This document shows positions 42,321 through 58,388 of a stretch of DNA of 64,000 nt, piece by piece (within the stretch, counting starts at the first letter, position 1; every line of letters starts with the position of its first letter). Made by a program: the position numbers and the translations under genes. This DNA comes from an uncultured Methylophaga sp. Its GTDB lineage: Bacteria > Pseudomonadota > Gammaproteobacteria > GCF-002020875. Location of the stretch: positions 1 to 64,000 of the forward strand of contig CALEHW010000024.1 of the NCBI GenBank assembly GCA_937877715.1, given 5' to 3'. The notes beneath the pieces are model-generated. The model worked only from the letters and a program-made list of their open reading frames with translations, was not told the DNA's origin and ran no database searches.

Positions 42321-42443
42321 ATAGTAGTAGTGTCATCATCTCTTTTCTCGCTCATTTAAGTGGAGAATAGCCGAAAATAATCATTGGATATTTGTGATAG
42401 GTCTATTGTAATAGAGCAAAATCATATCAACAAAGGTATCAAT

Positions 42444-45290
42444 ATGAATGACGATTTTACATGGAGATTTGATGTTTCGGTCATCGAATGGTTGCTTCTT
42501 CTTGCTATATTAGTCCTTCTGTCCGTAGTGGCTGCTGTGATTACACGTCAATCACTCAGAGCATTCAGAAAAGTAAATGCTCATGCAGGTGAACCGGTTT
42601 TCGCATCAGAAAACTGGCATACTGAAAGCACAAATATAATCTTCGAATTACTTGAAACGACGCCAAGTGGGCTATCAAGAGAAGAGGCAAATATCCAACT
42701 TGCCAAATATGGCCCGAATCAACTCCCTGAACCAGGGACGCGTAGTCCCCTGGTGCGGTTTTTATACCAGTTCCACAATGTATTGATCTATGTGTTGATA
42801 GTAGCAAGTGCTATCACGGCCATGCTGGAGCATTGGGTGGATGCCAGTGTGATCCTTGGTGTGGTGCTTATCAATGCCGTGATCGGATTCGTGCAGGAGG
42901 GCAAGGCCGAGAATGCATTAAGAGCGATACGCCAGATGCTTTCTCCAAATGCAATGGTTATGCGTAATGGCCGACAAATAACAATACCGGCTGAAGAATT
43001 AGTGCCTGGCGATATCGTCTTGTTGCAATCAGGCGATAAGGTGCCAGCAGACCTGCGCTTGTTTCGAGTCAAAGGGCTGCAAGTACAGGAATCGGCACTA
43101 ACAGGTGAATCAGTGGCTGTGGAAAAGATCACTGATCCCGTTGCACAGGAGACAGTGATTGGCGATCGCCGCTGTATGGCCTATTCTGGCACCCTGGTCA
43201 CTCATGGACAGGGTGCTGGTATGGTGGTTGCGACCGGAGCGCAAACCGAGATTGGTCACATTAGTAGACTGGTATCGGAAGTGGAGTCGGTGATGACCCC
43301 TCTGTTACGCCAGATGGCCCAATTTGGCCGTTGGCTCACAGCTACCATTCTAGTGATCGCTGTGGCTATCTTTGTATTCGGTGTATTGCTTCGTGATTAT
43401 GTCATGGCTGAAATGTTTCTTGCCGCAGTAAGTTTGGCGGTTGCTGCAATCCCCGAAGGGCTACCTGCGATCATGACCATTACGCTGGCTATTGGCGTGC
43501 AGCGTATGGCTCGCCAAAATGCCATTATACGCGAACTTCCTGCTGTCGAGACACTAGGGGCGGTAACAGTCATTTGTTCAGATAAAACCGGCACCCTGAC
43601 ACGTAATGAAATGACCGTGCGTGCGATTGCAACCACCAACAATCGATTTGAGCTTGGCGGTACAGGCTACGATCCACACGGTGCGATATCGCTGGCGAAC
43701 AGAGATGTACTTCTGGAAGAACGCTCTCTTCTGCAGGAGGTAGTTCGAGCTGCGGTACTTTGTAATGATGCATCACTGGAACAGAATAATGGTAAATGGT
43801 TAGTTCATGGAGACCCTATGGAGGGTGCGTTGCTGGTGGCAGGTTTAAAAGCGGGGTTGGATATTGAGGTAGAGAGTAAACACTACCCGCGTACCGATCT
43901 CATCCCTTTTGAATCAGAGCACCGCTTTATGGCAACACTCCATCACAGTCACATGGGTGACGCTTTTATCTATCTTAAAGGTGCGCCTGAGTGTGTGTTG
44001 GAAATGTGTACTCATCAGAGAGCTGTTGATGATGATCAGCCTCTGAATAAAAAGCACTGGCTGGCACGTATTGAAGAAATGGCGCAGCAGGGTCAGCGAG
44101 TGCTGGCGATTGCGGTCAAGCCAGTACGAAATGACCAAATGGAGCTCAGCTTCAGTGATGTGGAAAATGATCTAACATTACTGGGCCTGTTTGGCCTGAT
44201 CGACCCCCCTCGCGAGGAGGCCATTGAGGCAGTGGAAAGCTGCGGTATGGCGGGTATCCGTGTGAAGATGATCACAGGTGATCACGCTGCCACCGCCCGT
44301 GCCATCGCCCGACAACTGAAACTCGTTAATGCCGATGATGTGCTCACTGGACAAGCACTGGAAGGAATGAGTGAGAATGAGTTGCGGCAACGCGTGCAGG
44401 ATGTTGATGTGTATGCGCGTGTCAATCCTGAACATAAGCTTCTTTTAGTAAAATTATTGCAGGAACAAGGGTTGATTGTGGCAATGACGGGTGATGGCGT
44501 AAATGATGCGCCGGCCTTGAAACGTGCCAACGTAGGTATCGCCATGGGCCACAATGGCACAGAAGCAGCCAAGGAAGCGGCTGAAATGGTCCTGGCCGAT
44601 GATAATTTCGCCTCAATTACCCATGCCGTGGAAGAGGGGCGCACCGTATATGACAACCTTAAAAAGGCCATCCTTTTTATTCTGCCAACTAATGGTGGCG
44701 AGGCACTGATCATCCTTGCCGCTATCTTGTTTGGTTTTCATCAACTACCCTTGACACCGGCACAAATTCTCTGGGTGAATATGGTGACGGCAGTTACTTT
44801 GGCTCTGTCGCTGGCATTTGAACCACCCGAGCAGAATGTCATGCGGCGACCTCCCCGCGATGCCCATGAACCTATGCTGACCCCACATCTTATTTGGCGC
44901 ATTGCCTTTGTTTCCGTCATTCTCATGAGTGGAACATTCGGGCTTTTTCTTTGGGAGAGGGAACAAGGTGTAAGTATCGAGCATGCACAAACTGTTGCTG
45001 TTAATACGCTGGTTATGTTCGAGATATTTTATTTATTTAATTCGCGTTATATCACGGCCCCGGTATTTAACTGGGCAGGGTTAACAGGTAACCGTTATGT
45101 GTTGATGGCTGTTGGAGTTCTTGTCATCTTTCAATTGGGTTTTACTTACCTTGCACCGATGCAATCCTTATTTGGAACGACTGCAATTGATTTCAATATA
45201 TGGTTACGCATACTGCTAGTCTCCTCCACTGTATTATTTTTGGTTGAGATGGAAAAACACTTTGTGCGGTATCTGGAACGAAACAGATAG
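42444..45290 (+). CDS. Cation-transporting P-type ATPase (P2A, PacL/calcium-pump type)
   Basis: An ion pump of 948 residues. It has the actuator motif TGES, the phosphorylation site DKTGTLT (Asp380), the KGAPE nucleotide-binding motif, [11 protein letters not shown] and ten hydrophobic segments in the core. The M4 sequence IPEGLPA with later NGGEA and MVTAVTLAL fits the P2 family that carries Ca2+, Mn2+ or Na+/K+. An extra N-terminal membrane segment (about residues 13-33) precedes the usual cation ATPase N-terminal domain. The ATG at 42444 has AAAGG upstream; an upstream ATG at 42384 is less likely. Confidence 0.92.
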
Positions 45291-45374
45291 GAATTAAATT
45301 GGCGATATTCCTTCTATCGAACTGGAAAAGGAGTATTCTCAATAACCGGAAGAGTCAGCTATGGTGGCTTGACT

Positions 45375-45399
45375 CAAACCAAACCAAACCAAACCAAAC
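45375..45399. repeat. Pentanucleotide tandem repeat (CAAAC)5
   Basis: Five perfect copies of CAAAC lie 29 bases before the GTG at 45428. They fall inside the open frame if translation begins at the TTG at 45299. Because the unit is not a multiple of three, gain or loss of a copy would shift that frame. If the GTG is used, it would only change leader length. Confidence 0.9.
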
Positions 45400-45427
45400 G
45401 GTTTCCGACAAACCCGGGGGGATTCAC

Positions 45428-46765
45428 GTGAAAAGATCTGATGCTACGCTGCCCACATTAGATGCAGAAAAGCGGGCTAATAGATATAGCTGGATATTTG
45501 CGGGGGTATGGACCGTTGTGATCGCCATGCTGTTGTACTGGAATATTCAAATGATCCGGGAGCATACCCGGAATCTTGCTATCAACAAAGCCCGTGCAAA
45601 TTTCAATAAGGATCAGGCTTTTCGTTTTTGGGCATCAAAACATGGTGGGGTCTATGTGCCGGCTACTGAGCACACTCCTCCCAGCCCCTACCTTGAACAT
45701 ATTCCAGACCGTGATATTGAGACCCCTTCCGGGAAGCAGCTCACACTGATGAATCCCGCATACATGATTCGTCAGCTCAATGAAGATTTTGGTGAGCTGT
45801 TTGGTGTACATGGGCATATCACCAGCCTCCTGTTGCATCGGCCAGAGAATATGCCGGATGAGTGGGAGCGTGCCGCCCTGTTGCAGTTTGAGCAAGGCAT
45901 AAAGGAAATCAGTGAGTTCACTACCCTCGACGGCCAACCATATTTACGTTTAATGCAGCCGATGTATACAAGTGAGGGGTGTCTGAAGTGTCATAGCTAT
46001 CAAGGATACAAGATTGGTGATGTGCGTGGTGGCGTGAGTGTTTCGGTACCAATACAGAACTATCTTAATGAAGAGCGGCGGCAGACTCAGGTGAATATAC
46101 GTTCCTTTGGTGTAGTTTGGCTGCTGGGATTGCTGGGGCTGTACGGTGGCAGCAGGCGTTTGCGAGCAAGTGAGCTGAAGCGAGAAAAAATATTGGTGCA
46201 AACTATTGAGATGATCATTGCAACAGTTGAAAAACGAGATCCTTATACTGCAGGTCATCAGTTTAAGGTGGCTGCCTTGGTAGAATCTATTGCACATGAT
46301 ATGAGGTTGCCTGCACAACAGATCGAAGGGCTACGTTTCGGTGCCACTATTCATGATATTGGCAAGATATTTGTTCCATCATTAATTCTTAACCAGACTG
46401 GAAAGCTGACAGAGGCTGAATTCCAGAAAATCAAGATTCACCCAAAATCGGGTTATGATGTTGTTAACAAGATGGATTTTCCGTGGCCAGCGGCACAAAT
46501 GATCTACCAGCATCATGAAAGGCTGGACGGCTCTGGTTATCCATGTGGCATTAAGGGGGATGAAATTCTGCTGGAGGCCAAAATTCTGGCAGTTGCCGAT
46601 GTGATTGATGCAATGATATCAGATCGTCCATACAGAAAAGGGTTGACAGTGGAGGATGTGCTGCAGGAAATCACACAAGGAAGAGGCAAGCTCTATGATG
46701 AGGTAGTGGTTGATGCTGCTGTTAGGCTTATTAAATTGGGACTCCTTGATCGATACTTCGACTAA
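45428..46765 (+). CDS. Haem-type (Tll0287-like/DUF3365) sensor HD-GYP c-di-GMP phosphodiesterase
   Basis: A membrane signalling protein of 445 residues. A first membrane segment (about 20-40) is followed by a periplasmic DUF3365/Tll0287-type domain with a c-type haem motif C-x2-C-H (Cys185, in EGCLKCHSYQG). A second segment (about 227-245) leads to an HD-GYP domain with the metal dyad in IHDIGKIFVPS (about 308-313) and GSGYP near 368. It probably degrades c-di-GMP in response to redox state or a gas. The GTG at 45428 follows a GGGGG site. A TTG at 45299 with AGGA upstream, eight bases after the ATPase stop, would add 43 residues that include the CAAAC tract. Confidence 0.88.
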   Translation: MKRSDATLPTLDAEKRANRYSWIFAGVWTVVIAMLLYWNIQMIREHTRNLAINKARANFNKDQAFRFWASKHGGVYVPATEHTPPSPYLEHIPDRDIETPSGKQLTLMNPAYMIRQLNEDFGELFGVHGHITSLLLHRPENMPDEWERAALLQFEQGIKEISEFTTLDGQPYLRLMQPMYTSEGCLKCHSYQGYKIGDVRGGVSVSVPIQNYLNEERRQTQVNIRSFGVVWLLGLLGLYGGSRRLRASELKREKILVQTIEMIIATVEKRDPYTAGHQFKVAALVESIAHDMRLPAQQIEGLRFGATIHDIGKIFVPSLILNQTGKLTEAEFQKIKIHPKSGYDVVNKMDFPWPAAQMIYQHHERLDGSGYPCGIKGDEILLEAKILAVADVIDAMISDRPYRKGLTVEDVLQEITQGRGKLYDEVVVDAAVRLIKLGLLDRYFD

Positions 46766-46795
46766 TTGATCAGCTCTTAATGTTTCGCCAATCTG

Positions 46796-46825
46796 TTGAT
46801 GTTGGTCTATAGTCCAAGGTATAGA
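46796..46825 (+). promoter_or_regulatory. Possible sigma70-type promoter for the binding protein and GGDEF/HD-GYP pair
   Basis: TTGATG (46796-46801) and TATAGA (46820-46825) are 18 bases apart, 34 bases before the start at 46860. A moderate match found by eye. Confidence 0.35.
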
Positions 46826-46859
46826 TTGCATTTATGGAACGGCAGATAGGAGAAACTGA

Positions 46860-47864
46860 ATGTTTAGAAATGGATTGATATTGAGCTTTGTGCTTATCCT
46901 CGCAGTAGCGGTTATTTTTTGGCCAGTGTTTGATAAACAGGAATCTGAGCCTGTTTATACTGTAACACCGGTCATAATTGGAGCAGAAACCAGTCTGCTT
47001 ACGACACCGATATGGGTCGCAGAGGAGAAGGGATACTTTCTTGAAGAGGGTGTAGAGGCAATCATCAAGCCTTTTGACTCTGGAAAAGCCTCTTTTGAGG
47101 CGATGCTAAAAGGAGAGGTTGACCTCTCAACTGTTGCGCCTACCCCTATTATGTTCAATAGCTTCAGGCGTGATGATTTCTCGATTATTGCCTCCTTTGT
47201 ATACTCCCATGATGATGTAAAAGTAATCGCTCGCAAGGATAGTGGAATTAAAACAGCCAATGATTTGAGGGGTAAGCGTATTGGCATTAGATTTGGAACC
47301 ACAGGCCAGTTTTTCCTGGCTGCCTATCTTGATTATAACGGTATTGGGGCAGAGCAGATCGAGGCAGTGGATATTGCACCCTACAAGCTTCCCAAGGCAT
47401 TGGAGGTCGGCCAGGTGGATGCAATTATTGTCTGGGAGCCTCATGCCAGAAATGCACAAATACTGCTAGGACAGCAGGCAGTTCGTCTGCCCAGTTCACA
47501 GATCTACAAGGAATATTTTAATTTAATGGCAGGCAGGATGTTCACGCAAAATAATTCCGAGCTCTTGGAGCGGATATTGCGCGCTATACACAAGGCGAGC
47601 ATCTATGCGAAGAATAATCCATTGGAGGCGCAAGCCATCATTACAGAGAAACTTGGATTGCCCCCTAATCTGGCAACCAGTTTATGGGATGAATTTTATT
47701 TTGGCCTCTCTATGGATCAATCTCTTCTACTGGTACTGAAGAGTGAGGCTCGTTGGGCCATGGAGAGTGGGCTGGTGGAGAGTAGCAAGATTCCTGACTA
47801 CCATAATTACTTTTACCATGATGCCATTAAGGTGGTTGCTCCACATAATTTAAACATCTTTTAA
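46860..47864 (+). CDS. Membrane-tethered solute-binding protein, NMT1/SsuA type
   Basis: A periplasmic binding protein of 334 residues resembling those for nitrate, taurine, sulfonates and thiamine precursors (NMT1/SsuA). Markers are TTPIWVAEEKGYFLEEGVEAIIKPF, GEVDLSTVAPTP, ANDLRGKRIGIRFGTTGQFFL and VGQVDAIIVWEPHA. The N-terminal hydrophobic segment (about 5-23) has no cleavage site or lipobox I can see and may act as an anchor. No permease or ATPase of this family is in the window. The next gene, a GGDEF/HD-GYP sensor, begins 13 bases later. AGGAGAAA precedes the ATG. Confidence 0.87.
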   Translation: MFRNGLILSFVLILAVAVIFWPVFDKQESEPVYTVTPVIIGAETSLLTTPIWVAEEKGYFLEEGVEAIIKPFDSGKASFEAMLKGEVDLSTVAPTPIMFNSFRRDDFSIIASFVYSHDDVKVIARKDSGIKTANDLRGKRIGIRFGTTGQFFLAAYLDYNGIGAEQIEAVDIAPYKLPKALEVGQVDAIIVWEPHARNAQILLGQQAVRLPSSQIYKEYFNLMAGRMFTQNNSELLERILRAIHKASIYAKNNPLEAQAIITEKLGLPPNLATSLWDEFYFGLSMDQSLLLVLKSEARWAMESGLVESSKIPDYHNYFYHDAIKVVAPHNLNIF

Positions 47865-47877
47865 TAGTAATCTGGCC

Positions 47878-50271
47878 ATGCAATCCTCCCCCCCCCCCTC
47901 ATCACACATTCTGGATGGTGATATGGAGAAGAGGATCCATGCAATGGGATTGATGGTGCAGAGGGTAAGTTACAGGAAAGTATCCCTGATTGTCGGCCTG
48001 CTATTATTGTTGGTTGCTGTTGTTGGGCAATTTACTGTCACATTGATCATGAGGTATGAGGCTGGTGAATTGAGGGAAAAGCTTAACGGTACAGTAGATG
48101 TCTCCATCAATGGCTTGATCAACTGGGCTCATCATCAAAAACATGTTATCGAAATGGCGGCAGATCATCCAAAGGTTGTTGGTTTTGTTGAGAAACACAT
48201 TGCAGATCATCACGGTTCTTCCAAGCCGCAACCACATGATGGCCACTATGATGATTCCCGATCCATAATTAAATTGCTTGAGTCTTTGATTCATGAGGAG
48301 GGGTACATTGGGTTTTCGATATTCACCCCGGATATGAGACGTATTCTGGATTACAGGGAAGGCACCACATACAAAGTGTTGCCAGCCTATTCTCATCCAT
48401 ATGCCAAACGTGCCCTTTCCGGTGAGACATTTATCTCACCCCCGACACTCTTTGATACCAGAGATAGATATTGGCCAATGTATTTGCCGAAAAATATTCC
48501 ATCCCTGTTCACCCTGTCACCCATCAAGGATAGTGAGGGAAAGGTCATTGCTGCCATATCCTTTCATCTCTCCCCCTATAAAGGTTGGACATCTGTAGTC
48601 TCCTCAGCAAGATATGGCAGCTCTGCTAAGATATATCTGGTTGATCGCAATGGGGCAATGATCAGTGAGAGTCGTTTTCTGGACGATCTGAAAGGATTGG
48701 GGTTGGTCTTGGAAGGGAGAAACAGTGCCATAGGAATTACTGTTAAACCCCCTCCGGTGGCTGATGGTCATGCACCATCATTGACTGTTGCGGCCCGTAG
48801 TCTCTCTCAAAACATGCGTGGTCACAGCGTTCTTTCCCCATACCCGGACTATAGAGGGGTTTCTGTGGTTGGTTCATGGCGCTGGATAGAGGAGCTTGGG
48901 GTTGGTGTTATCTCTGAGCTTGACTATAAGGATGGTTTTAGTTGGGTTCTACGAATACAGAAAATTTATTGGTCAACAGTAATTGTCACAGCTCTTCTGG
49001 TGCTGTTGTTTATTAGTTATTTCTACGTCACCACTCAATTTTTAGAAAAGGGAGTGCAGCATGAACGACTACGTCGTCTCAAGGCTGAGCAGGATTGGGA
49101 GATTGCTCGTCATGATTCAACACATGACCTATTGACAGCGCTTCCCAATCGAATCTTATTTGTGGAGATTGGCAGACAGATTCTTAAACGTGCATCCAGG
49201 GCTGGTTATCCTGCCTGTCTGCTGTTTATGGATCTGGATAGATTCAAGTTGGTTAATGATGTTTATGGACATATTGTGGGGGACAGAGTCCTTAAAGAAG
49301 CTGCTCACAGGATGGGTCGAGAGGTACGCGAATCTGATGTTCTCTGTCGGTGGGGTGGGGATGAGTTCCTGATGCTTCTTGAGAATTGCGGACCAAACAA
49401 AAAGGTATCCGAGTTGGCTAACAAAATCATCTCCTCAGTCTCGGCCCCGTACTATATTAATGAATTGGAGCTTGAGATTGGCCTCACTATAGGTATCGGC
49501 TGTTTTCCAGTGGATGGACATTGGGTAAATGATTTGATCCGACATGCTGATGTTGCAATGTACAACGCCAAGAAACAATATAGAGGCACCCATAATTTCT
49601 TCAATAAAGAGATGCTTGTAGAAAATAAAGCATCACTGGAAACCGAGAAATCCCTGCTGTTTCGCCATGCAATGACAGAGGCAGAAAAACAGAGAAATGA
49701 TCTTTTGCTCCAGGTTATTGAATCACTAAGTCTCGCTATTGACCAACGTGACTCGTATACCGCTAACCACCAGAAGAGAGTTTCGGATGTTGCGGTCAAT
49801 ATTGCCAGTGATCTTGGTCTGTCAGCATCACAGATTGAGGGGGTACGGTTTGGAGGGTTACTCCATGATATTGGCAAGAATGGTATCCCAACAGAGGTTT
49901 TGCACAAGGTCACAGCATTGAGTGAACATGATCTGGCAGTTATGCATGAACACCCCATGTCTGGTTTCAGGATTTTAGAGGGAATTAACTTCCCGTGGCC
50001 AATTGCAGACATAGTGCTGCAACATCAGGAACGGCTGGATGGGTCAGGTTATCCATATGGTCTAAAAGGGGATGAAATTTTGCTAGAGGCGAGAATCCTG
50101 GCGGTAGCTGATACTATTGATGCAATGACATCAGATCGTCCATATCGTCCTGCATTGGAGCTTGAGGTAGCACTGTCTGAACTCAGAGAGAAGCGGGGGA
50201 TATTGTATGATGCCGACGTAGTAGATGCGGCTATAAGAGTATGTGAGAAGATGAATGGTATATCCGCATAA
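47878..50271 (+). CDS. Membrane GGDEF / HD-GYP c-di-GMP signalling protein
   Basis: A 797-residue sensor. A membrane segment (about 33-56) is followed by a periplasmic region of some 300 residues that looks like a double CACHE domain, then a second segment (about 361-383). The GGDEF domain has an intact GGDEF at 493-497 with an inhibitory RxxD site five residues before it. The HD-GYP domain has LHDIGKNGIP (HD near 663) and GSGYP near 721. Synthase and phosphodiesterase motifs are both complete. An eleven-C run lies in codons 4-8. Weak ribosome sites leave later ATGs at 47923, 47944 and 47953 possible as starts. Confidence 0.92.
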   Translation: MQSSPPPSSHILDGDMEKRIHAMGLMVQRVSYRKVSLIVGLLLLLVAVVGQFTVTLIMRYEAGELREKLNGTVDVSINGLINWAHHQKHVIEMAADHPKVVGFVEKHIADHHGSSKPQPHDGHYDDSRSIIKLLESLIHEEGYIGFSIFTPDMRRILDYREGTTYKVLPAYSHPYAKRALSGETFISPPTLFDTRDRYWPMYLPKNIPSLFTLSPIKDSEGKVIAAISFHLSPYKGWTSVVSSARYGSSAKIYLVDRNGAMISESRFLDDLKGLGLVLEGRNSAIGITVKPPPVADGHAPSLTVAARSLSQNMRGHSVLSPYPDYRGVSVVGSWRWIEELGVGVISELDYKDGFSWVLRIQKIYWSTVIVTALLVLLFISYFYVTTQFLEKGVQHERLRRLKAEQDWEIARHDSTHDLLTALPNRILFVEIGRQILKRASRAGYPACLLFMDLDRFKLVNDVYGHIVGDRVLKEAAHRMGREVRESDVLCRWGGDEFLMLLENCGPNKKVSELANKIISSVSAPYYINELELEIGLTIGIGCFPVDGHWVNDLIRHADVAMYNAKKQYRGTHNFFNKEMLVENKASLETEKSLLFRHAMTEAEKQRNDLLLQVIESLSLAIDQRDSYTANHQKRVSDVAVNIASDLGLSASQIEGVRFGGLLHDIGKNGIPTEVLHKVTALSEHDLAVMHEHPMSGFRILEGINFPWPIADIVLQHQERLDGSGYPYGLKGDEILLEARILAVADTIDAMTSDRPYRPALELEVALSELREKRGILYDADVVDAAIRVCEKMNGISA
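47888..47898. repeat. Homopolymeric C tract (C11) in the first codons of the GGDEF/HD-GYP gene
   Basis: Eleven consecutive C residues begin eight bases after the ATG at 47878. Losing one C would lead to a stop at 47951-47953, and gaining one to a stop at 47919-47921. Each stop lies next to an in-frame ATG (47953 and 47923). Confidence 0.9.
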
Positions 50272-50298
50272 TGGAAGTATTAATCGCTCCAAAAGTTA

Positions 50299-50326
50299 TT
50301 GGCAGTTTTGGAATAACTGATATTAC
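50299..50326 (+). promoter_or_regulatory. Possible sigma70-type promoter of the MSHA-like operon
   Basis: TTGGCA (50299-50304) and TATTAC (50321-50326) are 16 bases apart, just before the mshI start at 50339. The stretch also holds short inverted repeats (GTTATT/AATAAC and CCAAAA/TTTTGG). A moderate match, found by eye; the leader would be very short. Confidence 0.35.
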
Positions 50327-50338
50327 AGGCTCTCCTCC

Positions 50339-51259
50339 ATGGCTACGTTGCTAAAACAGTTGCCAGATAATCAGGGTGACACTGGTATAGGACTCTCTTT
50401 TCATGAGGATGGAATCTGTGTTGCCTGTCCACATTCCGTAGAGGGCCCGACAGAGAATGGCCTGCCACTAACGGTAGATTTCTTTCCCGCAAGGGGGGCT
50501 GATGTTCAGGTTCGACTGCTGCAGAAGCTGGCATCAAGGCACTCACTTCGTTCACTGCCTGCGACAATTGTGATGAATCCAGCCAGCTATCGTCTTCTGC
50601 AGGTGCCGATTCCTCAGGTCCAACAGAGTGAGATTGACTCCGCCCTGCGCTGGCAGATAAGGGATCTTGTTGATATGGATGTGGAGGATGCCATCATCCT
50701 ATCCTATCCTATGCCTGGACAGGGGCGCCCATCGTCACCACTACTGTTTGTGGTTGTGGCGGAGAGGAACGCAGTAACGAGGGCTGTGGAGATGGCCAGT
50801 GATGCTGGCATTAAAGTTGTCTCTGTTACTACCGTTGAGCTGGCTCTGCGTACTCTTCTGGGGGTGGTTGAAAAGAGTGAACAGCCATCCCTGCTGCTAG
50901 CCATCTTCCCAGAGAAGACCTTTCTGATCCATGTGGTTAATGGTGAACTTTACCGTACCCGGGAGCTCGATTACGGTGCCGCCCATCTTCCTGGTTCCGG
51001 TGGTGGGGCTGAGGATGGATCCTGGCCGCAGAGATTGGTAACGGAGGTTGGACGCTTCGTACTATTTTGTGGACGCCATTGTGAGCAGGGGAGTGCACAG
51101 CGTCTGCTGGTTCCATCCATAGTAACTAAGCTGCCAGAGCTCTCTGCACAGTTGGCTGAGGAGACGGGTATTGCTGTTGAGCAGTTCTCTCCCTGTCCGG
51201 TTGATCCACACTGTCTCCCGGCACTGGGAGCCGCCTGTAATGGAATGGGGGGTGGTTGA
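50339..51259 (+). CDS. mshI: MSHA biogenesis protein MshI (PilM-like)
   Basis: First gene of the MSHA-like pilus operon. The 306-residue cytoplasmic protein has an actin-like PilM pattern: GIGLSFHEDGICVA, RSLPATIVMNPASYRLLQVPIP, EIDSALRWQIRDLVDMDVEDAIL-type block, and AGIKVVSVTTVELALRTLL. PilM-type proteins bind the N-terminus of the PilN-like partner encoded next, linking the cytoplasmic motor to the alignment complex. The start at 50339 follows CTCCTCC and is not strongly supported by a ribosome site. The stop overlaps the next start (TGATG). Confidence 0.87.
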   Translation: MATLLKQLPDNQGDTGIGLSFHEDGICVACPHSVEGPTENGLPLTVDFFPARGADVQVRLLQKLASRHSLRSLPATIVMNPASYRLLQVPIPQVQQSEIDSALRWQIRDLVDMDVEDAIILSYPMPGQGRPSSPLLFVVVAERNAVTRAVEMASDAGIKVVSVTTVELALRTLLGVVEKSEQPSLLLAIFPEKTFLIHVVNGELYRTRELDYGAAHLPGSGGGAEDGSWPQRLVTEVGRFVLFCGRHCEQGSAQRLLVPSIVTKLPELSAQLAEETGIAVEQFSPCPVDPHCLPALGAACNGMGGG

Positions 51260-51900
51260 TGTCACAGCTGCAGCAGATCAATCTGTTTGATGAGGGGATG
51301 CTACATGGCCGACACTGGCGGCGCTGGAGGGCAGTTCTATTGCTCCTCCTGCTGTTGTTGCTGAGTGAGTTTGGATACCTCGGAATGCTTGTTATGGAGG
51401 AGCAACAACAGGCTCAACATATTGTGGCACTTGAGATCCAGCAGGCAGGGTTATCAGAAAATGAGAAGAGTCTGCAGCAGCAGTTAGTGAAGAGAAGGGG
51501 GAGGGTCTCGGTGATCGAGCAGCGTATCACCGGGCTTGGTAGTGAACAGACACGTTTGCAAAACCTTGTTGCAGTGCTGAGAGATGAGAGCGGTTTTACC
51601 CGTAGTGGATTCTCTTCACTGCTGGAGTCTCTCGCCTACTCCAGTGAAGAGGGTGCCTATCTGACACAGTTTAATCTTCTGCATGGTGGGGAGCAGGTTC
51701 AGCTGAGGGGGTATGCTGTGGAGGCTGATCAACTGACCCGCTATATCAACAGGCTGCTTGGTGCTGATCAGTTTAGAGGGGCTCGTGTTGATAGGCTGCA
51801 GCTGTTGCGTGATGTGGATGGTGAAGGTGGGGGCAATACAGCTAGCTGGTTTGCTTTTGAAGTGGATCTATCACGAGCTACAGATGGAGGTTCACAGTGA
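51259..51900 (+). CDS. MSHA biogenesis PilN-like protein
   Basis: A 213-residue bitopic protein. The short cytoplasmic N-terminus holds QQINLFDE, matching the conserved INLLP-type motif by which PilN binds PilM. A membrane segment (about 26-45, VLLLLLLLLLSEFGYLGMLV) leads to a periplasmic coiled coil rich in Glu and Gln and a ferredoxin-like end. In Shewanella-type loci this position holds MshI2 or MshJ. It overlaps the mshI stop by one base and the next gene by four. Confidence 0.82.
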   Translation: MSQLQQINLFDEGMLHGRHWRRWRAVLLLLLLLLLSEFGYLGMLVMEEQQQAQHIVALEIQQAGLSENEKSLQQQLVKRRGRVSVIEQRITGLGSEQTRLQNLVAVLRDESGFTRSGFSSLLESLAYSSEEGAYLTQFNLLHGGEQVQLRGYAVEADQLTRYINRLLGADQFRGARVDRLQLLRDVDGEGGGNTASWFAFEVDLSRATDGGSQ

Positions 51901-52571
51901 TCAGACTTCGTCGCCTGATACGCCGTTTTGATAGTCTCTCTTGGCAGCAGCACACCATGGTTGTTGTCATCTCTCTCTTGGTGGTTGCCACCCTCTGGTT
52001 TGTGGGTGTAGGGGGGCAGCAGCACGCATTGCAGGAGGCGGAGGAGAGTATTATAGAGATTGAGAAGCAGATAGATGATGGTGAGAAGAGTACCGATGCC
52101 CTGCGCCAGGAATTGGTGAAGATCTCGTCACAGGCATTGCTTGAAAGGGAGGCTACTCTTCAGCGCTCCATTGAGGGGTTGAGGAGTCAACTTGGCAGTC
52201 AGCAGATGTCATTCGGGGGTGGAGGATCACTGGAGGAGGTTCTGAACGGGATGCTGGAGCAGCCACATGGCCTGCATGTGGTAGGAATGTTGAGATTGAA
52301 TGAGGAGGATCTTTCTGAGCAGGAGCGGGAGCGGGTGGAGGAGTTTTCTACACAATCTGTGGTAGTAGCGGGGGTGCAGCTTGATCTGCAGGGAGGCTTC
52401 CGGCGGACGCTGGAGTTCTTCCAGGCAGTGGAATCAATGGAGGAGAATTTCCTCTGGGGCAGTATGCGTTATGTTGTCGCTGAGTATCCCGACGCAAATA
52501 TTCAGCTGCGGCTGTTTGTTGTCTCTGGATCAGGAGGAGCCAACCTCCAGACAGAGGGAGGGATATCCTGA
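51897..52571 (+). CDS. mshJ: MSHA biogenesis PilO-like protein MshJ
   Basis: A 224-residue bitopic protein, the PilO-like partner of the preceding one. Basic N-terminus (RLRRLIRRFDSLSW), membrane segment (about 20-38, TMVVVISLLVVATLWFVGV), then a periplasmic coiled coil (about 40-110) and a globular end with FRRTLEFFQAVESMEENFLW. The block is typical of MshJ, which helps align the inner-membrane platform with the secretin. Starts and stops of neighbours overlap on both sides. Confidence 0.85.
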   Translation: MIRLRRLIRRFDSLSWQQHTMVVVISLLVVATLWFVGVGGQQHALQEAEESIIEIEKQIDDGEKSTDALRQELVKISSQALLEREATLQRSIEGLRSQLGSQQMSFGGGGSLEEVLNGMLEQPHGLHVVGMLRLNEEDLSEQERERVEEFSTQSVVVAGVQLDLQGGFRRTLEFFQAVESMEENFLWGSMRYVVAEYPDANIQLRLFVVSGSGGANLQTEGGIS

Positions 52572-52915
52572 TGCGTAGACTTCACACAATAATAGCAACA
52601 GTGCTGGTGCTCTCTCATTCTGCTGGGGTTATGGCACAACCACTGCCAGATCCCACTCGTCCACCGACACAAGGGGGTAGTAAAGGGGTACACTTAACAG
52701 GCGTAGGTCCTCTAACCTTGAGTTATACATTGACTGGGCGGCGTCCTGCTGTTGCTATCATCAATGGTGAGAAGATCAGGGTGGGCGACACTGTTGGCGA
52801 CTCGATTGTGGTAACAGGGATCTATCCTGGAAGGGTGCTATTGAGAAGAGGTGTGAAGGAGATTGAGCTATCTCTGCTTCCGGCAGATATAAAGAGCAAT
52901 CTGGAGAAGGAGTAA
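52571..52915 (+). CDS. mshK: MSHA biogenesis protein MshK (PilP-like)
   Basis: A 114-residue exported protein. The signal peptide ends near VMA (about residue 22). The mature N-terminus PLPDPTRPP is the family hallmark, and a small beta domain follows (LTLSYTLTGRRPAVAIINGEKIRVGDTVGDSIVVTGIYPGRVLLRR), as in PilP/GspC homology regions that contact the secretin. Ends with a basic and acidic tail. It overlaps mshJ by one base. Confidence 0.87.
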   Translation: MRRLHTIIATVLVLSHSAGVMAQPLPDPTRPPTQGGSKGVHLTGVGPLTLSYTLTGRRPAVAIINGEKIRVGDTVGDSIVVTGIYPGRVLLRRGVKEIELSLLPADIKSNLEKE

Positions 52916-52925
52916 TGGTGAGAAT

Positions 52926-54599
52926 ATGATGATGATTCGTGGAACCATGATGCGCCGTTTTATGGCATCACTTTTTCTACTGTTGCTGCTTCAAGGCTGT
53001 ACTGGCTCCCCGCCGCGTGATCAGTCGGTAATCAATCAGATTGATAATGCGTTGGGTGCAGGTGTGGCAGAGGCGGGCAAGGCCGCAGACAATGTAGTTA
53101 CTTCTGAGGAGCTGCCTGATGCGGTCAATGAGGAGCTATTGCCACCCCTGATTGTTAATGTTCCGGATTCACCCAATGTTACCCTTGAGCCCCGTTTTAA
53201 TGTGGTTGTGCGTGACCTTGCAGCAGAGGAGTTCTTCCTTGGTCTCTTTGAGGGTACCTCCTATTCGGTGGTGCTGGCGCCAGGTGTAGAGGGAACCATT
53301 ACACTCTCTCTGCGGTCGGCCACTGTGCCAGAGGTGCTACAGACGGTTCGTGATGTATATGGCTATGATTATCAGCCTGTGCCCGGCGGCTATATGATTC
53401 TACCTTCGGCAATTCGGACTCAGATCTTCCAGATTAACTATCTCAATATAAACCGTGATGGCTCCTCCAGAACCACGATCAGCTTTGGACAGCTGTCTGA
53501 TAGTGAAGGTGGGAGTGAGCTCTCCGGTAGTGATGTGTCAACAACAACCAAGGCGGATTTCTGGAGTGAACTGCAGACCACGCTGGTCAGTATTGTGGGG
53601 AGCGAGGATGGGCGCAAGGTGGTGATCAGTCCGCAGACCGGCGTGATTGCAGTTCATGCACTCCCTGTTGAGCTTCGTTCAGCGGGAAATTTTCTTGAGA
53701 CCCTGCAGGATAACCTGCGCAGACAGGTACTGTTGGAGGCAAAGATTCTGGAGGTAGAGCTGAAGGATGGCTATCAGTCCGGAGTCAACTGGGCAGCACT
53801 GTTTGAGCCAGGTTCTGGTAAGTCGGTAGTTGCGGGGCAGACTGGAAGGAGTGGTGGGGTGTTTGACTCTGCAACCGGGGTAGTTGACTCCAACAGTCCA
53901 GGAACAGGCAAGTTCAGTCAGGTAGAGCTGGATCCCGCTGCCTTTGGGGGGATATTCAGTCTTGCGCTCAATCTTAATGATTTTACTGCACTAATCGAGT
54001 TGCTGGAAACACAGGGTGTTGTGCGTGTGCTCTCCAGTCCCCGAATCTCAACTATCAATAACCAGAAGGCGGTAATCAAGGTAGGAACCGATGAGTTCTT
54101 TGTTACAGATGTAGGAACGACCACCACCACTACAAGTACTACACCAATTACTGAACAGGATGTAGAGCTAACCCCATTCTTCTCGGGAATTGCTCTGGAT
54201 GTAACCCCACAAATCAGTAGAGAGGGTGAGGTGGTGCTCCATGTCCATCCATCAGTGGTTGAGGTGTCTGATGGCACAAAGAATCTTACTGGCTCTCTGG
54301 CTAATGTGCCACTGGCTAAGAGTAGTGTACGTGAATCCGATAGCATAGTGATTGCCCAGAATGGTCAGATAGTGGTGATTGGTGGGCTGATGAAGAGCAC
54401 CCAGAGAGAGAATGATGCGGAAACCCCAGGTTTGAGTGGTCTGCCTCTTGTTGGTGGTCTGTTCCGACATGAGCGCACCTCGGTGAAGAAGCTTGAACTG
54501 GTTATTCTGATTCGCCCGACAGTGGTGGTCGGGCAGGAGCAGTGGCGTTCTGAGTTAGAGCAGACTGCCAGGCGTTTCCGTAGATTGAATGTGAATTAG
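52926..54599 (+). CDS. mshL: MSHA secretin MshL
   Basis: The outer-membrane channel of the pilus, 557 residues. A lipoprotein signal peptide (LFLLLLLQG before Cys25) suggests it reaches the outer membrane as a lipoprotein. A secretin/TonB short domain lies near 90-150 and a secretin N-domain near 160-260. The C-terminal secretin domain contains the VRVLSSPRISTINNQKAVIKVG motif and the final PLLGGLF-type block as LPLVGGLFRHERTSVKKLELVILIRP. Several adjacent ATGs make the exact start uncertain; all keep the lipobox. Confidence 0.93.
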   Translation: MMMIRGTMMRRFMASLFLLLLLQGCTGSPPRDQSVINQIDNALGAGVAEAGKAADNVVTSEELPDAVNEELLPPLIVNVPDSPNVTLEPRFNVVVRDLAAEEFFLGLFEGTSYSVVLAPGVEGTITLSLRSATVPEVLQTVRDVYGYDYQPVPGGYMILPSAIRTQIFQINYLNINRDGSSRTTISFGQLSDSEGGSELSGSDVSTTTKADFWSELQTTLVSIVGSEDGRKVVISPQTGVIAVHALPVELRSAGNFLETLQDNLRRQVLLEAKILEVELKDGYQSGVNWAALFEPGSGKSVVAGQTGRSGGVFDSATGVVDSNSPGTGKFSQVELDPAAFGGIFSLALNLNDFTALIELLETQGVVRVLSSPRISTINNQKAVIKVGTDEFFVTDVGTTTTTTSTTPITEQDVELTPFFSGIALDVTPQISREGEVVLHVHPSVVEVSDGTKNLTGSLANVPLAKSSVRESDSIVIAQNGQIVVIGGLMKSTQRENDAETPGLSGLPLVGGLFRHERTSVKKLELVILIRPTVVVGQEQWRSELEQTARRFRRLNVN

Positions 54600-54621
54600 G
54601 GAGTAAAAAAGGGAGACTATT

Positions 54622-55539
54622 ATGTATCTCGGTCATTTTGGTCTTCATGAGCACCCCTTCGATCTGACGCCGGATACAGACTACTATTACGGTAATCCCT
54701 CCCATCAGGAGGCGATGAACATGATGATGGTTGCGCTACGGGATGATACTGGTTTTATCAAGGTAACTGGTGAGGTGGGAACCGGCAAGACTCTGCTCTG
54801 CCGCAAACTGGTTAATGAGCTGGGTACTGGATTCCATGTTGCCTATCTCCCAAACCCGCCGCTTACTCCGCAGGAGCTCTATCTGGATGTTATTCGTGAT
54901 CTGGGGCTGAAGGAGCCGGTCAGTACCTCATTACATGAGATGCTTAAGCTGATTACCGATAAGCTATTGAGGAGTGCTGTAGAGGGGAATCGTGTGGTAA
55001 TCGTGCTGGACGAGGCGCAGGATATACCAGATGAGACCATGGAGGCGCTACGTCTACTCACCAATCTTGAGACTGAGAAAACCATATTGCTTCATGTGGT
55101 TCTATTTGGCCAGCCTGAGCTGGATAGGCGCCTGGCACAGGAGTCACTGCGTCAACTGCGTCAGCGCATAGTCTTTAGTGACAAGCTGACGCCACTGGAT
55201 CTTGATGCGGTGCATGGTTATCTCCAGCATCGGGCAACTGTTGGTGGTTATGGTGGTAATGGTGATTTCCCCCTCTTTTCCGCTCAGGCAGTTCGTCTGC
55301 TATACAAGAGGAGTGGCGGTATCCCCCGGCTGATCAATATTCTTGCACACAAGGCGTTGATGCTGGCTTATGGCAAGGGGAGTGAGCGGGTGAAGTGGTC
55401 TCATGTCCGTGGCGCCATCCTTGATACTGAGGGTGTATCAGGCAGGTTTGCCTTTGGATGGCCCGTGTTCTCACTGGGTATATTGTCGCTGCTCTCTGTT
55501 GTGATCATTGCACTGTTGAGAAGTGGAGGGGGTGGATGA
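54622..55539 (+). CDS. mshM: MSHA biogenesis AAA+ ATPase MshM (ExeA-like)
   Basis: A 305-residue ATPase of the ExeA/MshM family. It begins with the diagnostic YLGHFGLHEHPFDLTPDTDYYY, has Walker A GEVGTGKTLL near residue 50, Walker B VVIVLDEAQDI near 131, and the arginine-containing sensor block RLINILAHKALMLAYG. A C-terminal membrane segment (about 279-299) tethers it to the inner membrane. ExeA-like proteins help place the secretin in the envelope. The stop overlaps mshN (ATGA). Confidence 0.92.
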   Translation: MYLGHFGLHEHPFDLTPDTDYYYGNPSHQEAMNMMMVALRDDTGFIKVTGEVGTGKTLLCRKLVNELGTGFHVAYLPNPPLTPQELYLDVIRDLGLKEPVSTSLHEMLKLITDKLLRSAVEGNRVVIVLDEAQDIPDETMEALRLLTNLETEKTILLHVVLFGQPELDRRLAQESLRQLRQRIVFSDKLTPLDLDAVHGYLQHRATVGGYGGNGDFPLFSAQAVRLLYKRSGGIPRLINILAHKALMLAYGKGSERVKWSHVRGAILDTEGVSGRFAFGWPVFSLGILSLLSVVIIALLRSGGGG

Positions 55540-56627
55540 GCGTAATCAACTCCATGTTGCGTGATCTTGAGCAGAGAAAGGGGCGGGAGGGTTCAGCCCC
55601 AATAGAGCCGAGTGAGGATTTGATCAGGGGTGTTGTGGTGCCTAAGGGAAGATGGGGAGATTCCAGGAGAGCTATTTTTAGGGGTACGGCTGTTGTTGTG
55701 GTGCTCGTTGCGCTCTGGATATTAGTACCCCGTATGGTTGATATGCCGTTGGATAGTGGAATCATTGAACAGATGGCTCCTCCTGCCCAGGTTGTGGACA
55801 GGCCCTCCGTTGACCAGAGTGCAGTTGATAAGGAGGATAGTGCTCTTGCAGAGACTGAGGTTGCGGAGCCTGCGACTGAAACCGTAGAACTTCACCCCTT
55901 GTCTGATTCGGTGGGGGCTATTTCTGGGCAGGCTGTGGTTTTGATGCATGACCTGCTCCCAATCAAGGTGGCTGTTGGAGAGAGACAATCTGCCTCAACA
56001 CCACAACCCCCAGCTGTGCAGAAGGTTGAGGTGATGCCAACCTCCGATGAATTGGCAGAGCAGGCTTATGCGGAGGCAGTTCGTGCGTTGAGAGATGGCA
56101 ATAAGGTTGCAGCAGAGGAGGCTCTGACTAATGCGCTGGATCTTGCATCAGATCATCGAGGGGCGCTGGAGGCGCTATCAGCTCTATTGATATCATTAGG
56201 GCGCTATGATGAGGCTAGGCCAATGGTCGATTATGGTCTGGCTACACTGCCCAATAATGCCCTGTTGTTACAGCTGAGAGCACGGTTGTTGATGCATGAT
56301 GGCAAGATAGATGATGCAATACAGATGCTTGAGGGGAACCTTCCGGCAGTGGGTGTCTCACCGGAATCTCATGCTTTACTCGCTGCAATGTACCAGAAGC
56401 AGAAGCAGTATCAGAGATCAGCACAACTGTATGGACAACTACTGCGGGTTTATCCATCAAATGGTGTGTGGGAGATGGGGCTTGGGATTGCTCTTGAATC
56501 AATGGGGAAGCGAGAGGAAGCGCTCTCTCACTATAAGAAGGCGATAAAAAGTGGTCGGCTGAAGGCAGCTGCACTCTCTTTTGTTAGGGATAAGTTGCAA
56601 GGTGTTCAGGGTGGAGGCGTACCATAG
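55536..56627 (+). CDS. mshN: MSHA biogenesis protein MshN (TPR)
   Basis: A 363-residue protein starting MSVINSMLRDLEQRKG, the recognisable MshN N-terminus. One membrane segment (about 47-66) is followed by a Pro/Glu/Val-rich spacer to about residue 165. The C-terminal half holds about five TPR-like repeats (ALRDGNKVAAEEALTNALDLAS, LPNNALLLQLRARLLMHDGKIDDAI and later). The start at 55536 overlaps the mshM stop. An in-frame start at 55458 lies inside mshM and lacks family similarity. Confidence 0.88.
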   Translation: MSVINSMLRDLEQRKGREGSAPIEPSEDLIRGVVVPKGRWGDSRRAIFRGTAVVVVLVALWILVPRMVDMPLDSGIIEQMAPPAQVVDRPSVDQSAVDKEDSALAETEVAEPATETVELHPLSDSVGAISGQAVVLMHDLLPIKVAVGERQSASTPQPPAVQKVEVMPTSDELAEQAYAEAVRALRDGNKVAAEEALTNALDLASDHRGALEALSALLISLGRYDEARPMVDYGLATLPNNALLLQLRARLLMHDGKIDDAIQMLEGNLPAVGVSPESHALLAAMYQKQKQYQRSAQLYGQLLRVYPSNGVWEMGLGIALESMGKREEALSHYKKAIKSGRLKAAALSFVRDKLQGVQGGGVP

Positions 56628-56648
56628 CCACTGAAACAGAGGGACTAT

Positions 56649-58388
56649 ATGACCAATAATGAGACTAAACGGTTAGGTGAGCATCTGGTTGAGGCGGGTG
56701 CACTTACCCAGCAGCAGGTGGATGAGGCCCTGGCTGAGCAGAGCCGATCAAGTGGCCGCCTTGGTGAGGTAATCATCAGGATGGGAATGCTGGATGAGGA
56801 GTCATTCGTTAGCTCTCTGTCCCGGCAGATAGAGATGCCACTGGTAGATCTGAAGCATGCTGTTCTGGAACCTGAGACAGTCAGGTTGATACCGGAGGCC
56901 TATGCCCGCGCCTATAGTGCACTTGCGATAGAGCGAGCGGGTGACCATATTGTGGTGGGGATGGATGATCCCACAGATATCAACTCACTTGATGCTCTCT
57001 CCAAGGTGGTGCCTCTGCCGATTCAGCCAGTCTTGGTGCGTCCATCAGATCTTGGACGACTTCATGATCTCTTCTATCGACGTGAGGCAGAGATTGCAGA
57101 TATTGCCAGTAGTGTTGATGCCTATACCCACAAGCCGCTAGAGGAGGCAAAGACAGAACAGCGTGGGCCATTGACCATGGTCGATGCCCCCGCCGCACAG
57201 ATGGTGGAGCTGCTATTTGAGAACGCTGTAAGAATGGGTGCATCAGATATCCATATTGAACCAGATGAGGAGGTTCTACGGATTCGCACACGCGTTGATG
57301 GCATACTCCATGAGCAGATTTTAGGGCAGAAGGATGTGGCAACAGTACTGGCCTCTCGTCTCAAGACCATGGCTGGACTTGATATATCTGAGAAGAGATT
57401 GCCGCAGGATGGCCATTTTGATCTCCAGGTCATGGATAAGCGGATAGATGTGCGTCTCTCAACTATGCCGGTTCAGTATGGCGAATCTGTGGTGATGCGT
57501 CTGCTGGATCAGAGTAGTGGTGTGTTTGCTCTGGATCGGCTGGGGATGGCTGCCGATATGCTGGAACGTTTCCGCCACCAGATCAGTCGACCACACGGGA
57601 TGATTCTGGTAACTGGGCCAACCGGTAGCGGAAAGACGACAACGCTCTATTCTGCACTAGGTGAACGCAATAACCCGGAAGAGAAGATAATTACTGTTGA
57701 GGACCCGGTAGAGTACAAGTTGCCACGTATCAGTCAGGTGCAGGTCAATCCAAAAATTGGACTCAGCTTCAACAGGGTTCTGCGATCTGCATTGAGGCAG
57801 GACCCCGATGTCATCCTGATCGGAGAGATTCGTGATGGTGATAGCATGCAGATTGGACTGCGGGCAGCAATGACTGGGCATCTGGTGCTATCGACACTCC
57901 ATACCAATGATGCAATTAGTACCGTATCACGATTGGTTGATCTGGGTGGAGAGGGGTATCTGCTAGCCTCAACGCTCAGAACTGTGGTTTCGCAACGGCT
58001 GGTTCGCCGCCTATGCAATAGGTGCAAGCAGGAGGCAGCGCTTGCGCCGCATGAACAGGAGTGGGTCCACGCTGTACTTGGAGAGGAGCCAAGCGGCAGG
58101 AAGTTTATGCGTGGTACAGGCTGTTCTCAGTGTGAACAGACCGGTTATCGGGGGCGGGTCGGGGTGTTTGAGATGATCATGATTGATGATGAACTCAAGA
58201 ATGACCTGAACCATGGAGATATGCAGAGTTTTGAATCCCATGCACGTGCCCAGAAGGGGTATCGTGGCCTGATAAGGAGGGCAATGGATTATGCGCTCTC
58301 GGGGGTGACCAGTGTTGAGGAGGTGATGCGGGTAACTGATGATCTGGACCTGCCGCAACCTCAGCAGAGTGATGGGGATGCCAGTTGA
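56649..58388 (+). CDS. mshE: MSHA pilus extension ATPase MshE
   Basis: A GspE/PilB-type motor of 579 residues. The N-terminus carries two full MshEN c-di-GMP-binding motifs, R8-L9-G10 to Q31 and R37-L38-G39 to Q60, each 24 residues with a 5-residue spacer, as defined for Vibrio MshE. The ATPase part has Walker A GPTGSGKTTTLY near 322, Asp and His boxes (ITVEDPVEYKLPRISQVQV, HLVLSTLHTNDAI) and a four-cysteine zinc site (CNRCKQEA and CSQCEQTGYRGR). Pilus extension is therefore likely stimulated by c-di-GMP. Confidence 0.95.
   Translation: MTNNETKRLGEHLVEAGALTQQQVDEALAEQSRSSGRLGEVIIRMGMLDEESFVSSLSRQIEMPLVDLKHAVLEPETVRLIPEAYARAYSALAIERAGDHIVVGMDDPTDINSLDALSKVVPLPIQPVLVRPSDLGRLHDLFYRREAEIADIASSVDAYTHKPLEEAKTEQRGPLTMVDAPAAQMVELLFENAVRMGASDIHIEPDEEVLRIRTRVDGILHEQILGQKDVATVLASRLKTMAGLDISEKRLPQDGHFDLQVMDKRIDVRLSTMPVQYGESVVMRLLDQSSGVFALDRLGMAADMLERFRHQISRPHGMILVTGPTGSGKTTTLYSALGERNNPEEKIITVEDPVEYKLPRISQVQVNPKIGLSFNRVLRSALRQDPDVILIGEIRDGDSMQIGLRAAMTGHLVLSTLHTNDAISTVSRLVDLGGEGYLLASTLRTVVSQRLVRRLCNRCKQEAALAPHEQEWVHAVLGEEPSGRKFMRGTGCSQCEQTGYRGRVGVFEMIMIDDELKNDLNHGDMQSFESHARAQKGYRGLIRRAMDYALSGVTSVEEVMRVTDDLDLPQPQQSDGDAS

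Follow-up and report, generated by a model that had tools for sequence, protein, structure and literature searches.

Known leader repeats and known stochastic control of c-di-GMP genes

By analogy of position, the closest precedent for the repeat described here is found in Moraxella catarrhalis, where uspA1 carries a G9/G10 tract and uspA2 an (AGAT)n array between promoter and start (PMC4679880). In the available part of that source, the uspA1 repeat lies ~30 nt 5' of the start and repeat number tracks expression level. The same source describes intergenic TAACTGA direct repeats, also short and just 5' of start codons, in marine Beggiatoaceae. Length changes in intergenic homopolymer tracts of Pseudomonas aeruginosa are proposed to alter downstream expression, and the accessible text of this work speculates that such changes and c-di-GMP enzymes work jointly (PMC8115180). 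A further paper (PMC6324874), in its available portion, treats such repeats in general terms only.

Stochastic control 5' of c-di-GMP phosphodiesterase genes is itself described. In Clostridioides difficile, pdcB and pdcC are preceded by invertible promoters that turn over by site-specific recombination (PMC11868660, PMC9286219), and a 2025 review, as far as its accessible text goes, presents phase variation of c-di-GMP phosphodiesterases through the C. difficile invertible promoters and the fimbrial operon of Escherichia coli (PMC11868660). A search by title of the phase-variation and contingency-locus literature, mostly confined to papers outside subscription, returned no microsatellite-controlled c-di-GMP gene.

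The repeat and its locus

The window (the whole 64-kb stretch of DNA that was analysed) contains a (CAAAC)5 array between a transporter gene and a gene for an HD-GYP protein, with further c-di-GMP genes downstream:

42384-45290, + strand: cation-transporting P-type ATPase, upstream of the HD-GYP gene
45291-45427, + strand: intergenic leader from the ATPase stop to GTG 45428; the unlikely alternative is 43 additional codons starting at TTG 45299
45375-45399, + strand: (CAAAC)5 microsatellite, probably within the untranslated leader
45416-45421, + strand: G6 run, probable Shine-Dalgarno sequence for GTG 45428 from predicted duplex energy and position
45428-46765, + strand: Tll0287-like (CLKCH) HD-GYP protein, 445 aa, with HDIGK and GSGYP
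46860-47864, + strand: NMT1/THI5-like substrate-binding protein, between the HD-GYP and GGDEF-HD-GYP genes
47878-50271, + strand: GGDEF-HD-GYP protein with GGDEF, HDIGK and GSGYP, the genome's only GGDEF match
47888-47898, + strand: C11 run; with ATG 47878 as start it falls in codons 4-7, with ATG 47923 it belongs to the leader
56649-58388, + strand: MshE-like pilus ATPase, the genome's only MshEN match

The first-pass annotation had called the gene downstream of the array a haem-type HD-GYP gene, and domain searches bear this out. Its product has a Tll0287-like sensor domain (PF11845) with CLKCH, followed by an HD-GYP domain (PF13487) with HDIGK and GSGYP, so that the CxxCH, HD and GYP motifs are all present. 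By sequence it is a putative c-di-GMP-degrading HD-GYP phosphodiesterase.

The five perfect CAAAC copies that the annotation placed between TTG 45299 and GTG 45428 are all there, filling the 25 bp of 45375-45399 with 100% matches. With up to three mismatches allowed the array is still the sole match within the window, and at the same tolerance none of 100 dinucleotide-preserving shuffles contains one. Both strands of the 1,888,536-base assembly (74 contigs) lack a second (CAAAC)4, and the next-best match to the leader element elsewhere in the genome has an E value of 0.478. A repeat survey covered 708,731 bases of the same genome, made up of the window and 40 stretches on a non-random set of contigs, several in both batches having been picked for C-run or protein matches. 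Two five-base repeats in it reach 15 bp or more, (CAAAC)5 at 25 bp and ATCCT x 3.4 at 17 bp; none does in five sequences of the same length simulated with a second-order Markov model. The array is a genuine sequence feature, beyond chance, and as a long perfect short-unit repeat near a gene start it shows one of the features looked for in slipped-strand phase-variable genes. The ATCCT repeat lies at 50696-50712, inside an ORF (50339-51259) 5' of a PilN-like gene.

Thirty related loci were scanned for simple repeats from 300 bases 5' of the open frame (in L180 the scan ended early, at a stop), and the sole repeat above thresholds is a 14-base GCTG run in L106. No close orthologue of the HD-GYP gene is present in five same-genus genomes, where the best match (52%, in G005) covers the sensor part only. 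The upstream ATPase has a best match of 41% in four same-genus genomes, and no relative was found among viral contigs.

Choice of start codon

Is the repeat translated? The ATPase stop ends at 45290 and TTG 45299 sits eight bases further, at the head of an open frame; both this gap and the AGGA that had been noted upstream of the TTG are correct on the sequence. GTG 45428 lies 28 bases beyond the 3' end of the array. Starts were compared across 39 sensor-domain relatives, in a numbering where TTG 45299 is 1 and GTG 45428 is 44; 31 aligned N-terminally, and eight that match only further downstream (L034-L038, L040, L110, L111) were left out. Among the 31, which are not 31 independent lines (several share one genome) and whose aligned start positions shift slightly, by a few residues, with the choice of anchor, 28 have an in-frame start codon at the equivalents of positions 38-59, the exceptions being L106, L108 and L189, and five have a start at position 20 or earlier, that is, near the TTG (L102, L181, L184, L188, L197).

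Predicted Shine-Dalgarno duplex energies point the same way, at -9.4 kcal/mol for GTG 45428 versus -4.2 kcal/mol for TTG 45299, the anti-Shine-Dalgarno sequence being assumed to be E. coli-like. The 43 codons from TTG to GTG score -0.17. This puts them in the bottom 3% of a set of 200 real N-termini, and 31% of shadow frames reach the same score or a better one; by this measure the stretch is non-coding-like in its codons. The first 43 codons 3' of GTG 45428 also score low (-0.04), which weakens the codon argument against the TTG. Together, the starts of related loci, the duplex energies and codon usage favour GTG 45428 over TTG 45299, and the array most likely sits in an untranslated leader and not inside the reading frame.

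What copy number could change

With fair confidence we therefore take GTG 45428 as the start of the Tll0287-HD-GYP gene and (CAAAC)5 as a microsatellite in its untranslated leader, not as a frame switch; any effect would most likely be one of graded tuning, and neutrality is about as likely as tuning by leader length. Slipped-strand mispairing would alter the number of CAAAC copies, and each change would make a C/A-rich, mostly unpaired stretch longer or shorter. Its 3' end lies 16 bases from the G6 ribosome site, and its length as an open landing stretch could then tune translation by degrees, which would be the likeliest active route. The annotation's point that with a GTG start leader length varies with copy number is right, and only this length would change. 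In predicted folds most of the repeat stays open, with a mean pairing of 0.26 at five copies, and predicted pairing of the G6 site stays at 0.53-0.63 across 2 to 10 copies; since this is near-constant, structure predicts no tuning. An effect of copy number on expression is thus possible, not predicted, and a copy change would probably adjust the output of the HD-GYP gene slightly, if at all, without switching it on or off.

The main alternative is a translational frame switch, in which translation would begin at TTG 45299 and each single-copy change would toggle the protein off or on. Its arithmetic holds, as the annotation had claimed: the TTG frame is in register with the HD-GYP gene at 2, 5 or 8 copies, so the present five are in register, and loss or gain of one copy breaks the frame, with 45-aa products at both 4 and 6 copies. 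The AGGA before the TTG and the open frame also fit. Against this, a start near the TTG occurs in just 5 of the 31 related loci, the TTG ribosome site is the weaker one and the codons that follow it are non-coding-like; moreover, the strong downstream GTG would presumably bypass such a switch, and we consider the frame-switch reading unlikely. The same TTG could instead open a leader ORF coupled to the gene, whose ribosomes would traverse the repeat and let copy number set three expression levels. At 3, 6 or 9 copies the stop of the TTG frame is offset by 1 nt from the GTG and overlaps it as GTGA, which would permit reinitiation; at 1, 4 or 7 copies it falls 11 nt into the gene, and five copies fuse the two frames. 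Every register from 1 to 9 copies therefore passes the GTG, then either continues in frame or meets a stop at 1 or 11 nt beyond. Such coupling requires initiation at the weak TTG and shows no conservation, and arithmetic drawn from one sequence can be accidental, which leaves it very improbable.

A role in promoter spacing, with the repeat as the spacer between promoter boxes, an arrangement seen in other phase-variable promoters, would place the effect at transcription. A TTGACT hexamer (5/6) stands immediately 5' of the array, and a FliA-like site overlaps the array's end, matching 9 of 12 positions of the FliA consensus. Yet for 1 to 6 copies no -10 box above 3/6 lies 15-19 bases from TTGACT, and 46 other FliA-like sites in the window are at least as good, so that neither the spacing nor the FliA-like site does better than chance. 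No promoter or terminator pattern was found in the leader; the three promoter-like sites in 45100-47000 all lie outside it, versus 3.8 expected. Of the readings weighed here this one seems the least probable. As for RNA elements, a search for riboswitches and other Rfam families gave two matches in 44900-45900, both at chance level and neither in the leader, and the RNA fold is not unusual (z-score -0.49).

A second repeat nearby

The annotation also held that different unstable repeats at two neighbouring c-di-GMP genes were unlikely to be chance. In all likelihood the second repeat it had in mind is C11 at 47888-47898. It belongs to the GGDEF-HD-GYP gene, which lies two genes downstream of the Tll0287-HD-GYP gene and encodes the same HDIGK and GSGYP motifs together with GGDEF. 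With ATG 47878 as start, 8, 11 or 14 C are in frame and 9, 10, 12 or 13 C are out of frame. The ribosome-site energy is -9.8 for ATG 47923 versus -1.5 for ATG 47878 (again with an E. coli-like anti-Shine-Dalgarno sequence assumed), and because ATG 47923 has the stronger site and the C11 run ends 24 bases before it, this run too may lie in a leader, a layout similar to that of (CAAAC)5. Of 19 loci related to the GGDEF-HD-GYP gene, eight could be aligned usefully at the N-terminus, and their starts are too scattered to favour either ATG.

Away from contig ends the survey holds four long repeats. Two are (CAAAC)5 and C11; of the others, a G12 run lies in an ORF that has no Pfam match and (TTCTGG)6.2 in a TonB-like ORF. 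Random placement of four repeats brings two of them within 2,513 bases of each other in 4% of trials, and a given repeat has such a neighbour in 2%; the resulting P of ~0.04 is post hoc, the set of four having been chosen by the analyst after seeing the data. The two close repeats stand as observed, while the argument that they are no coincidence carries modest weight, their proximity being suggestive only of a non-random arrangement. It gains some interest because no c-di-GMP enzyme was detected in the genome besides the products of these two genes.

A general enrichment of C/G runs of at least 9 bases is not clear, with 25 in five simulated 709-kb copies versus 11 in the sample, a count that excludes three long contig-end G runs and comes from contigs several of which were chosen for such runs. 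Those three runs (36, 18 and 53 bases; L099 1-55 and L139 12366-12418) are probably sequencing artefacts. The G12 run (L084 6525-6536; G000:C24:110525-110536) lies in a 441-aa ORF and makes it a candidate frame-switch gene, and the TTCTGG x 6.2 repeat (L086 7522-7558, in G000:C42) has a six-base unit and is frame-neutral.

A compact c-di-GMP gene set beside a pilus cluster

Searched with family models up to E 10, the whole genome shows one GGDEF domain, that of the 47878-50271 gene, and no EAL or PilZ domain. A protein search, run in place of a family model, found HD-GYP in two genes alone, Tll0287-HD-GYP and GGDEF-HD-GYP. Assembly completeness is given as 99.81%, which makes such absences meaningful, though not proof. 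At E up to 0.001 the genome has a single MshEN domain (PF05157), carried by the pilus ATPase (56649-58388), so that the c-di-GMP genes detected all lie within 13 kb (45428-58388), beside a pilus cluster. Around the ATPase are genes for a secretin, an AAA ATPase, a GspF-like protein and a PilN-like protein, the last slightly under the Pfam cut-off, and we infer that the cluster is MSHA-like.

The MshEN domain has two 24-residue motifs, at residues 8 and 37 and five residues apart. Compared with the patterns in the available text of PMC5013675, neither is a strict match and both are relaxed matches: the strict motif RLGxx(L/V/I)(L/V/I)xxG(L/V/I)(L/V/I)xxxxLxxxLxxQ is broken at hydrophobic places by A and V in motif I and by M and F in motif II. 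One of these places corresponds to a Leu that the same text names as a guanine contact. As both motifs depart from the strict pattern, c-di-GMP binding is uncertain, and the ATPase is a possible c-di-GMP receptor.

The c-di-GMP genes between 45428 and 58388, for Tll0287-HD-GYP, GGDEF-HD-GYP and the MshEN-domain ATPase, possibly form a self-contained signalling module. A bolder reading, which we regard as rather doubtful, is that the c-di-GMP network of this small genome has been reduced to one module in which leader microsatellites put both enzymes under slipped-strand control. If so, a heritable lottery of repeat number, and not promoter inversion, would set the c-di-GMP level and pilus-mediated attachment. 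Should copy number vary, repeat-driven diversification of c-di-GMP would be directly readable here, given so few c-di-GMP genes. The compact module of c-di-GMP and pilus genes is a more solid point than the well-placed leader repeat.

Comparison with known systems

How does this locus stand beside the described ones? Its pilus part resembles the Vibrio cholerae MSHA pilus, which c-di-GMP controls via MshE (PMC7096442, PMC5013675, as far as their available text describes it). An MshEN ATPase is common to both; here it lies beside the c-di-GMP enzymes, its motifs fit the relaxed pattern only, and searches of the genome found no further c-di-GMP enzyme or MshEN ATPase. With C. difficile pdcB and pdcC the locus would share stochastic control 5' of phosphodiesterase genes, which is demonstrated there for invertible promoters whereas microsatellite control is putative and just proposed here. 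The selected P. aeruginosa tracts are enriched before envelope-biogenesis genes, and the accessible part of PMC8115180 names none before a c-di-GMP gene. The Beggiatoaceae repeats, as that source's available text has it, are numerous in each genome and overlap with the place where the ribosome site is expected, whereas (CAAAC)5 occurs once, 5' of a separate site. The Moraxella repeats occupy the type of place proposed here for (CAAAC)5; they precede genes for pathogen surface proteins whose repeat number and expression have been studied, while the gene here encodes a putative c-di-GMP enzyme and its leader has no recognisable promoter.
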